Source: Bacteroidales bacterium
GTDB taxonomy: Bacteria; Bacteroidota; Bacteroidia; Bacteroidales; JAIOZK01
Direction: 5' to 3'
Length of the DNA stretch: 64,000 bases
NCBI GenBank assembly: GCA_021740625.1
Contig: JAIOZK010000012.1
Span: forward strand, 1 to 64,000
A program made the translations under genes and the position numbers. This document shows, piece after piece, positions 44,513 to 47,491 of the stretch. The notes beneath the pieces were generated by a model, which was not told the DNA's origin, ran no database searches, and worked only from the letters and a program-made list of their open reading frames with translations. Positions within the stretch are counted from its first letter, which is position 1; every line of letters starts with the position of its first letter.

Positions 44513-45538
44513 ATGAAACATTTACCAGCAAAATACAAAGCCGTTGTATTACCCGAATATCATCCAAATGTGATCCGGGCCATGCTCGGACTGAAAATAA
44601 AAGAGAAAAACATACCCATTCTGAAAGAAAATGAAGTGCTGGTGAAAATCGAGGCTGCACCGATCAATCCTTCCGACATTGCATTCATGCAGGGAGGATA
44701 CAACATCAAAAAAACCACACCTTGTGTTCCGGGTTTTGAAGGCACTGGTGTAGTGGTGAAATCAGGTGGATCCAGATCCGCCAGAGCACTTGAGGGAAAA
44801 AAGGTAAGTTGTTTTACACAAAAGGATTCCGATGGCACCTGGGCCGAGTATTTCGTTACACATCCAGAAGATTGTATCTCCCTCAGCAATGATATGCCCA
44901 TTGAACAGGCAGCCTGTTTTGCGATCAACCCCTTAACTGCATATGGTTTGTTCGAAACGGCACGACTCAACAAAAGCACTGCCATCATTCAGAATGCTTC
45001 TGGTAGCCAGGTAGGCAACTACATCCGGGCACTTGCTGAAATGGCTGGTACCGAAGTCATCAATATCGTCAGAAAAAAAGAAACAGCCAACATGCTGAAG
45101 GAGGAAGGAGCAAAACATGTCCTTATTTCTTCGGAGGATGATTTCCAGGAAAAATTAAAAGATTTGAGCCACCTGTTGAAGGCGAAAACCGCTTTTGATG
45201 CAGTGGCAGGACAAATGACGGGCATTTTATACAATGCCATGCCGGCTGGAAGCAAAGTGCTTGTATACGGCGGATTGTCCGGTCAGCCCATTGGAAACAT
45301 CGCAGTGCTGGATGCCATTTTCCAGGACAAGCATCTGAGAGGGTTTAATTTGAATGCATGGAGAAAAGCAAAGACTCCGGAAACAATCCATGAGATCACC
45401 GGCGAGCTGCAGCAATATTTCATTGAACAAAAATTAGTTACGCATATTCAGGGATCTTTTCGTTTCGACGAAATCGTGGATGGCCTGAAAAAATACCTGG
45501 GCGGCATGTCGAAAGGGAAAATTTTGTTAACACCATAA
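44513..45538 (+). CDS. MDR-superfamily alcohol dehydrogenase/quinone oxidoreductase
   Basis: A 341-residue medium-chain dehydrogenase. The GroES-like N-terminal half includes INPSDIAFMQGGY and PGFEGTGVVV; the Rossmann half has ASGSQVGNYIRALAEMAG. No catalytic zinc ligand cluster is visible, so it fits the quinone-oxidoreductase/enoyl-reductase type. Substrate unknown. The frame begins at 44477 inside gmk, but the ATG at 44513, 2 nt after the gmk stop, matches the family N-terminus. Its stop overlaps the nadD start (TAATG). Confidence 0.87.
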   Translation: MKHLPAKYKAVVLPEYHPNVIRAMLGLKIKEKNIPILKENEVLVKIEAAPINPSDIAFMQGGYNIKKTTPCVPGFEGTGVVVKSGGSRSARALEGKKVSCFTQKDSDGTWAEYFVTHPEDCISLSNDMPIEQAACFAINPLTAYGLFETARLNKSTAIIQNASGSQVGNYIRALAEMAGTEVINIVRKKETANMLKEEGAKHVLISSEDDFQEKLKDLSHLLKAKTAFDAVAGQMTGILYNAMPAGSKVLVYGGLSGQPIGNIAVLDAIFQDKHLRGFNLNAWRKAKTPETIHEITGELQQYFIEQKLVTHIQGSFRFDEIVDGLKKYLGGMSKGKILLTP

Positions 45539-46125
45539 TGAGCAAGAAAAAAAGGAAGACCGGTTTGTTCTTCGGATCATTTAATCCCATACACATGGGG
45601 CATATGATGATTGCTAATTACATGATTGAACTGACAGACCTGCATGATATCTGGTTTGTGATCTCCCCGCACAATCCCCTGAAAAAGAAAAGTACATTGC
45701 TGGCCGACCACCACCGTTATTATATGGTGCAACTGGCTGTAGAAGACGATGCCCGCTTCAGGGCTTCCAACATAGAATTTGACTTGCCGCAACCTTCTTA
45801 CACCATCGACACCTTAACTTATTTAAATGAGAAATACCCCGATCATCAATTTGTCCTGATCGCAGGTTCCGACAATTTTCCTTCCTTTCACAAATGGAAA
45901 AATTATCAAATTCTACTCGATCTTTACGAGATATACGTTTATCCAAGACCGGGTGCTTCTCTTGGTGAATATGCCGGTCATCCCCACATAAAACTCATTA
46001 AAGCCCCCCTGATAGAGATCTCCTCAAGCTTCATCCGCAAAGCTGTAAAAGCCAAACTGGATATCAGGTATTTCCTCCCTGCAAAAGTTTATAAGCATAT
46101 TGTGGATATGCATTTTTATGATTGA
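45538..46125 (+). CDS. nadD: nicotinate-nucleotide adenylyltransferase
   Basis: A 195-residue nucleotidyltransferase that adenylates nicotinate mononucleotide to deamido-NAD. GLFFGSFNPIHMGH holds the HxGH-type motif and SSSFIRKA is the ISSTxIR equivalent. Start codon overlaps the preceding stop. It is the last gene of the yicC-gmk-oxidoreductase-nadD set. A weak hairpin follows, then a separate promoter for a possible small RNA. Confidence 0.93.
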   Translation: MSKKKRKTGLFFGSFNPIHMGHMMIANYMIELTDLHDIWFVISPHNPLKKKSTLLADHHRYYMVQLAVEDDARFRASNIEFDLPQPSYTIDTLTYLNEKYPDHQFVLIAGSDNFPSFHKWKNYQILLDLYEIYVYPRPGASLGEYAGHPHIKLIKAPLIEISSSFIRKAVKAKLDIRYFLPAKVYKHIVDMHFYD

Positions 46126-46232
46126 CCCTTCGGTGGGGTTTATCTTGAACGCAAAGCAGGGCTCACCCTTCAACCATAAATTTTATTGACAAAAATCAAC
46201 CTACATATGTTGATAAATTAATGCCAGGTTAA

Positions 46233-46263
46233 TTTTGTGTTAAGAAAATAATACCTATATTTG
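46233..46263 (+). promoter_or_regulatory. strong intergenic promoter
   Basis: TTTTG (46233-46237) and TATATTTG (46256-46263) separated by 18 nt: the best Bacteroidota -33/-7 pair found in the window. No gene start follows it, but a terminator does. Confidence 0.6.
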
Positions 46264-46268
46264 TAGCG

Positions 46269-46372
46269 GACATTATGGTTTGGTTTGGTTTGGTTTGTTA
46301 TTGATGTCCTATTACCTAATTTACTTATTCAACAAGAATGGAAGGCGCGGCTGAAAAGCCGGGCCTTTTCTC
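46269..46372 (+). ncRNA. candidate small RNA of about 100 nt
   Basis: Bounded by the promoter at 46233-46263 and an intrinsic terminator at 46342-46372. Near the 5' end are four GGTTT units (46277-46296), giving four GG runs spaced by TTT, which could form a two-tier G-quadruplex. A 36-codon frame from the ATG at 46338 runs past the terminator and is unlikely to be translated. I cannot name a known RNA family; comparison with the Rfam Bacteroidales-1, Bacteroides-2 and Flavo-1 models would be needed. Confidence 0.4.
46342..46372 (+). terminator. terminator of candidate small RNA
   Basis: AAGGC plus CGGCT (46342-46352) pairs with AGCCG plus GCCTT (46357-46367) with one mismatch, around a GAAA tetraloop, followed by a T-rich tract. 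Confidence 0.7.
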
Positions 46373-46447
46373 TTTTGTGCCAGAAGGTGTTTTTGATACA
46401 CATAAATTGGATGTATTACTACACGCTGAATTTCTAAAATTTCAATG

Positions 46448-46503
46448 ATCAAGGCACAAATAACAAATAATATCCAATAACCCAAATCCAAAATTCAAAA
46501 CCA
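46448..46503. repeat. degenerate heptamer array, left
   Basis: About eight 7-nt steps loosely following AAAATCC/AACAAAT on the plus strand, 50 nt left of the clearer array. The reverse complement resembles units of the right array, so the two may form an imperfect inverted repeat. Phase was judged by eye. Confidence 0.35.
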
Positions 46504-46555
46504 TGCCCAATACGAGCCATTTTGCTCATTGGATTTCAAGTAATTGGTGTTATTT

Positions 46556-46604
46556 GGAATCTGGGATCTGGAATCTGAAATCTGAAATCTGAAATCCGGA
46601 ATCT
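46556..46604. repeat. heptanucleotide tandem array, 7 units
   Basis: Seven contiguous 7-nt units, consensus GRAATCT (three GGAATCT, two GAAATCT, two single-base variants). It ends six bases before the stop codon of the convergent fabD gene (46610). Confidence 0.75.
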
Positions 46605-46609
46605 GAGCC

Positions 46610-47491
46610 CTAACCTGCGCTTCCGGTAATAATGTTCTTGTCCATCTTCTTGAACAAACCCTGCAGCACAGTTCCGGGTCCTACCTCAATCACTTCCTTG
46701 GCGCCGTTGGCGATCATGTTCTTCATGATCTGCGTCCAGCGTACCGGTGAGGTTAATTGTGCGATAAGGTTGGTCTTGATGATTTCCGGATCGGTAACGG
46801 ATTGTCCGGTTACATTCTGATATATAGGACAAACACCCTTGCCAAATTTTGTGGTTTTAATGGCATCGGCCAGCTCAACCCTGGCCGGCTCCATCAAAGG
46901 AGAATGAAAAGCTCCGCCAACTTTCAGGGGCAAAGCCCTCTTGGCTCCGGCTTCTTTCATTTTTTCACAGGCGATCCTTATGCCTTCATTCGAACCGGAT
47001 ATGACTAGCTGTCCTGGTGAATTATAATTGGCAGGGACCACCACCTCTTCTTTGATGGACTCCAATACTCTTTCAACTGCTTTATCATCCAGTCCGAGAA
47101 TAGCTGCCATGGTAGAGGGATTCATCTCACAAGCTTTTTGCATGGCCTGTGCACGTTTCGAGACCAGGCGCAATCCGTCTTCAAAGTTGAGGGTTTTATT
47201 GGCAACCAGTGCCGAGAACTCTCCCAGCGAATGCCCGGCAACCATATCGGGCTTGAAATCATTGCCCATGGTTCTGGAAAGGATGACCGAATGCAGAAAA
47301 ATTGCAGGCTGGGTTACTTTGGTTTGTTTGAGGTCTTCATCAGTCCCATCAAACATCAAGTCCGTGATCTTAAATTTCAAAATGGTATTGGCTTTCTGGA
47401 ATAGTTCTTTTGCCAAAGGAGAGGTTTCATACAGATCTTTTCCCATACCAACAAACTGTGCACCCTGACCGGGAAAAACATATGCTTTCAT
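46610..47491 (-). CDS. fabD: malonyl-CoA:ACP transacylase
   Basis: A 293-residue malonyltransferase that loads malonate onto acyl carrier protein for fatty-acid synthesis. VFPGQGAQFVGMG near the N-terminus, the nucleophile Ser88 in GHSLGEF, and the catalytic His195 in GGAFHSPLME are all in place. Length is typical. It stands alone; no other fab gene adjoins it. A heptanucleotide array abuts its 3' end. Confidence 0.95.
   Translation of the reverse strand: MKAYVFPGQGAQFVGMGKDLYETSPLAKELFQKANTILKFKITDLMFDGTDEDLKQTKVTQPAIFLHSVILSRTMGNDFKPDMVAGHSLGEFSALVANKTLNFEDGLRLVSKRAQAMQKACEMNPSTMAAILGLDDKAVERVLESIKEEVVVPANYNSPGQLVISGSNEGIRIACEKMKEAGAKRALPLKVGGAFHSPLMEPARVELADAIKTTKFGKGVCPIYQNVTGQSVTDPEIIKTNLIAQLTSPVRWTQIMKNMIANGAKEVIEVGPGTVLQGLFKKMDKNIITGSAG

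Follow-up and report, generated by a model that had tools for sequence, protein, structure and literature searches.

The gap between nadD and fabD in this Bacteroidota genome of 4.0 Mb probably holds a stand-alone, fast-evolving intergenic small RNA gene of ~100 nt, to judge from the sequence of the locus in the window (the whole 64 kb stretch of DNA analysed, contig C11) and from its counterpart in a sister species. An earlier sequence-only reading had proposed a possible small RNA at this place, and that proposal is supported by an orphan promoter, a terminator and conservation in the sister, while the quadruplex it attached to the RNA finds no support. It had also described convergent neighbours with no gene between promoter and terminator, and rightly so: nadD ends at 46125 on the plus strand and fabD at 46610 on the minus strand, the gap contains no convincing gene, and no same-strand gene lies 3' of the terminator stem at 46340-46369. 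The features are the following.

45538-46125, plus strand: nadD (TIGR00482)
46230-46237, plus strand: TAATTTTG, a second, overlapping -7-like box from the TAnnTTTG scan
46233-46237, plus strand: TTTTG, -33 promoter box read from the sequence, part of the sole exact TTTG-N17-20-TAnnTTTG in the window
46256-46263, plus strand: TATATTTG, -7 box of Bacteroidota sigma-A (consensus TAnnTTTG), 18 nt after TTTTG; the sister has TACATTTG at the equivalent place
46268-46369, plus strand: predicted small RNA, ~100 nt, placed by the promoter and terminator positions; homologous unit in the sister at G001:C73:4827-4929, minus strand
46268-46275, plus strand: 5' arm of hairpin 1, GGACATTA, from the fold; the sister keeps a hairpin with altered letters, GGTATCA/TGATGCC
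46277-46296, plus strand: four GGTTT units, loop of hairpin 1, read from the sequence; absent from the sister
46293-46309, plus strand: conserved part of hairpin 1 (end of the loop plus 3' arm), GTTTGTTATTGATGTCC; sister GTTTGTTGTTGATG-CC
46322-46332, plus strand: conserved linker TACTTATTCAA, candidate seed; 11/11 identical in the sister
46340-46377, plus strand: intrinsic terminator GGAAGGC-G-CGGCT GAAA AGCCG-G-GCCTTTT, then CTCTTTTG; sister GGAAGGCGCGGTC GTAAAT GGCCGGGCCTTTTTTT
46610-47491, minus strand: fabD (TIGR00128), gene end at 46610
G000:C42:20426-20635, minus strand, elsewhere in the host genome: RRM-1 protein, 95-aa open frame (locus L212)

The element TTTTG-N18-TATATTTG at 46233-46263 matches the Bacteroidota sigma-A promoter exactly, the -7 consensus TAnnTTTG having been published for Flavobacterium (PMC9723704). 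Its earlier description as the best promoter in the window is borne out in the sense that no other exact match to TTTG-N17-20-TAnnTTTG occurs in the 64 kb; with an average of 2.05 such matches in shuffles, the match taken by itself is weak and within chance, and it gains its significance from context. TAnnTTTG occurs 68 times in the window, 19 of these copies falling within 4.8 kb of intergenic DNA. When genes were called mechanically, as the longest non-overlapping open reading frames of at least 90 aa, all 17 intergenic copies elsewhere in the window were found to face a same-strand gene, usually 13-110 nt before its start, and for this reason the box can be regarded as a reliable promoter mark in the host. 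The only two of the 19 that have no same-strand gene are the overlapping pair at the nadD-fabD locus. Since TAnnTTTG marks promoters here and no gene lies downstream, TATATTTG is an orphan promoter, and the locus thus possesses one hallmark of a small RNA gene, a promoter of its own with no coding gene to serve; a further hallmark, an intrinsic terminator within a few hundred nucleotides of the promoter, is likewise present.

In the proposed mechanism, sigma-A would transcribe rightward from TTTTG-N18-TATATTTG, starting near 46268-46271 (a position good to within a few bases, ~5-8 nt past the -7 box); termination at 46340-46369 would give an RNA of ~100 nt. That the unit is transcribed, where exactly its RNA begins and ends, and everything said below about its function, we infer. 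From its 5' end, the predicted RNA would consist of a hairpin whose loop is rich in G/U, a linker region left largely unpaired and the terminator hairpin. Hairpin 1 is built from GGACAUUA and UGAUGUCC, and the GG runs sit in its loop, a point absent from the earlier reading; the loop is large, C-free and G/U-rich, and is followed by an A/U-rich linker (UACUUAUUCAA). The strong terminator with a GAAA tetraloop that had been described was recovered at 46340-46377 as stem, GAAA, stem and U-tract, the stem at 46340-46369 comprising 12 pairs (7 + 5) with one mismatch. Compared with shuffled sequences, the whole transcript folds more stably, with z -2.4 in the host and z -3.6 in the sister. Hairpin 1 alone has no extra stability in the host (p 0.36), the value for the sister being p 0.058, and the two sequences available in all are too few for a rigorous test of covariation in it. 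The mean unpaired probability of the linker TACTTATTCAA is 0.55 in the host window and 0.71 in the sister.

The sister species is a 'Bacteroidales bacterium' known from MAG Tobar14m-G11 (G001, contig JAIPBS010000043.1); the GTDB family of the host consists of one genus, from which two genomes were compared, and nadD is 74% identical between host and sister. The region 3' of nadD in the sister presents, in the same order, the TACATTTG box, a 5' hairpin (GGTATCA/TGATGCC), the GTTTGTTRTTGATG arm (in full GTTTGTTGTTGATG), the TACTTATTCAA linker and a terminator (GGAAGGCGCGG...CCGGGCCTTTTTTT). When the two intergenic regions were aligned locally the score was 55, whereas none of 1000 dinucleotide shuffles exceeded 40; the homologous block begins in the loop of hairpin 1 and extends as far as the U-tract. 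The terminator is the best-conserved part of the unit; when only the sequence upstream of it was aligned, 4 of 1000 shuffles reached the observed score, and 19 of 1000 did so upstream of the linker. On this one sister-species comparison, conservation therefore goes beyond neutral drift. Of the elements that the sequence-only reading had expected to be kept in relatives, the -7 box and the terminator are retained in this one same-genus genome, the GG runs are not, and the -33 box shows no clear conservation; the linker and the hairpin arm, which had not been named, are retained in addition. On the far side of the unit the sister carries a histidine kinase gene (His_kinase PF06580) in the same direction, with a TTACTTTG box of its own after the terminator. 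Because the far-side gene is thus a convergent fabD here and a same-direction kinase with its own box in the sister, the unit belongs to neither of them.

The constant neighbour is nadD, and this raises the possibility, unlikely in our judgement yet deserving of weight, that the unit is simply the 3' end of the nadD operon, either a conserved terminator and 3' UTR with no independent transcript or the source of a 3'-UTR-derived RNA. In host and sister alike the unit comes after nadD, and its strong terminator, best conserved as it is, could owe that conservation to serving nadD. Against this speak the retention of the orphan -7 box, boxes of this kind being promoters in this genome, and the distance of the terminator from the nadD stop codon (215 nt). 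Furthermore, the conserved loop and linker fall outside any role in termination, and nothing alike was found after nadD in other families of the order. Far less probable is a very short open reading frame acting as a leader-peptide attenuator or micropeptide. Nine codons do run across the repeat from the ATG at 46275 to the TGA at 46304 (ATG GTT TGG TTT GGT TTG GTT TGT TAT TGA, MVWFGLVCY), and in the sister an ATG (MFVCC, five codons) stands in frame with an aligned stop, the last codons being alignable as GTT TGT TRT TGA; frames of nine and five codons, however, arise easily by chance. As a leader or attenuator the frame was rejected in view of the convergent fabD, which leaves no same-direction gene in the host to attenuate, and of the promoter box that the next gene of the sister has of its own after the terminator. 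The change of the gene beyond the unit between the two species likewise shows that the unit is not the leader of a far-side gene.

The four GGTTT units noted earlier at the start of the transcript are present at 46277-46296, with GG runs starting at 46277, 46282, 46287 and 46292, and the exact (GGTTT)4 occurs once in the 4.0 Mb genome. This singularity and the regular three-base spacers are what recommend the idea that the four GG runs form a two-tier RNA G-quadruplex through which the transcript works, an idea that we consider scarcely credible. In the sister, TAAATGTTTGTTTGTTGTTG replaces the TATGGTTTGGTTTGGTTTGGTTTGTTATTG of the host, so that no GG runs remain there. The two-tier spacing, regarded earlier as unusual, is common: the window contains 123 such motifs, as compared with 72-102 in shuffles. 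With quadruplexes enabled, ViennaRNA retains the hairpin and finds no stable fold for the isolated repeat; the quadruplex thus fails on both counts, conservation of its G runs and predicted stability over the competing structure. The most plausible interpretation makes the repeats a lineage-specific microsatellite within the hairpin loop, the outcome of copy-number expansion of a G/T pentamer under little sequence constraint, and they are probably incidental to the small RNA; they would represent a slippage-prone expansion in the loop, for which quadruplex formation is unnecessary. It is a long shot that slippage of GGTTT in the C-free G/U loop would let repeat number tune loop pairing between strains, making the unit a member of a genus-restricted, phase-variable family of regulatory RNAs.

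As an independent small RNA the transcript might act in trans, its linker, its loop or both pairing with mRNAs, perhaps together with an RRM-1 protein, as has been reported for Bacteroides small RNAs; trans-pairing is suggested here by the layout and by this analogy, and the 11-nt linker TACTTATTCAA is the best candidate for the seed. Exact 10-nt complements of the linker number 16-19 per genome, about as many as for the reversed control word, and among the loci read, the unit's own locus aside, no orthologous gene carries such an exact complement in both genomes. Exact complements of the loop near start codons likewise yielded no target common to both genomes. The loop word CATCAAYAACA occurs commonly; the one locus pair that shares it was set aside, as it looks like conserved coding sequence instead of a leader. 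RRM-1 proteins are encoded in both genomes, one in the host and two in the sister; as a protein of this family has been reported to be a global RNA binder in Bacteroides, they are candidate small RNA-binding proteins by analogy.

The Rfam search that had been proposed as a check gave no match in the window at gathering score (Rfam 15, including GibS and BTnc231, RF04180), the best sub-threshold match being far below the cut-off. The survey of relatives gave a mixed answer, with the unit found in one same-genus genome and nowhere else in ~790 genomes of the class. DNA similarity revealed no homologues beyond the genus, and a covariance model of linker and terminator none in 393 genomes of the order and 395 of the class, nor in 17 chosen genomes in which every candidate was scored; as two sequences, and those two parts only, went into this model, a more diverged relative could escape it. 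The weak matches of the model that were inspected proved to be ordinary gene terminators without the linker. In the order's remaining loci and in 80 genome-collection loci, the region 3' of nadD contained nothing alike, the only addition being the sister's own record, and two extra matches (L018 and L019) to a seed-plus-terminator pattern were attributed to a chance repeat or coding sequence. Within the host genome the unit is single-copy and has no paralogues, a second match of the model (G000:C13) being the terminator of an unrelated ORF, and the plasmid and viral collections gave no match.

By analogy, the layout matches that of intergenic Bacteroidota small RNAs that pair with mRNAs, such as GibS, FopS and Rfp18. 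GibS (RF04182; Ryan et al. 2020, PMC7366714) is an intergenic Bacteroidales small RNA, 100-150 nt long, that has a promoter of its own and ends in a Rho-independent terminator; it is largely single-stranded save for weak hairpins and conserved within one genus. There is no homology to it, however: the sister unit reaches 20.8 bits where the gathering score is 115, and GibS does not appear at all among the matches listed for the host unit; GibS has a non-canonical PM2 promoter and an unpaired 5' seed (PMC7366714), whereas the present unit has a TAnnTTTG promoter and a 5' hairpin. FopS, studied with the RRM-1 protein RbpB, offers a parallel in that Bacteroidales small RNAs are reported to pair near start codons (PMC11697453) and in the occurrence of RRM-1 proteins in both genomes here, but it is a multicopy family partly related to GibS (PMC11697453), while the present unit is single-copy with no relation detected. 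Rfp18 from Flavobacterium psychrophilum, compared by description only, is an independent, genus-conserved small RNA from a Bacteroidota genome whose promoters are of the TAnnTTTG type; in contrast to the present unit it is reported to have strong secondary structure, with its pairing region in the third stem-loop (PMC9723704).

The locus adds one probable small RNA gene for a little-studied, uncultured lineage of Bacteroidales and is otherwise ordinary, genus-restricted small RNAs of such a layout being already known from Bacteroides and Flavobacterium. It also suggests a usable rule for Bacteroidota without RNA-seq, whereby a small RNA candidate is indicated when a TAnnTTTG box in intergenic DNA has a terminator after it but no gene downstream; a scan for orphan box plus terminator could list more such candidates genome-wide. 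Elsewhere in the same gap, just past the fabD stop codon, an imperfect 7/14-nt tandem array of ~3.7 copies (TGGAATCTGAAATC) occupies 46552-46606 and adjoins a weak inverted repeat (46472-46487 / 46519-46534); the array looks like a degenerate intergenic repeat.
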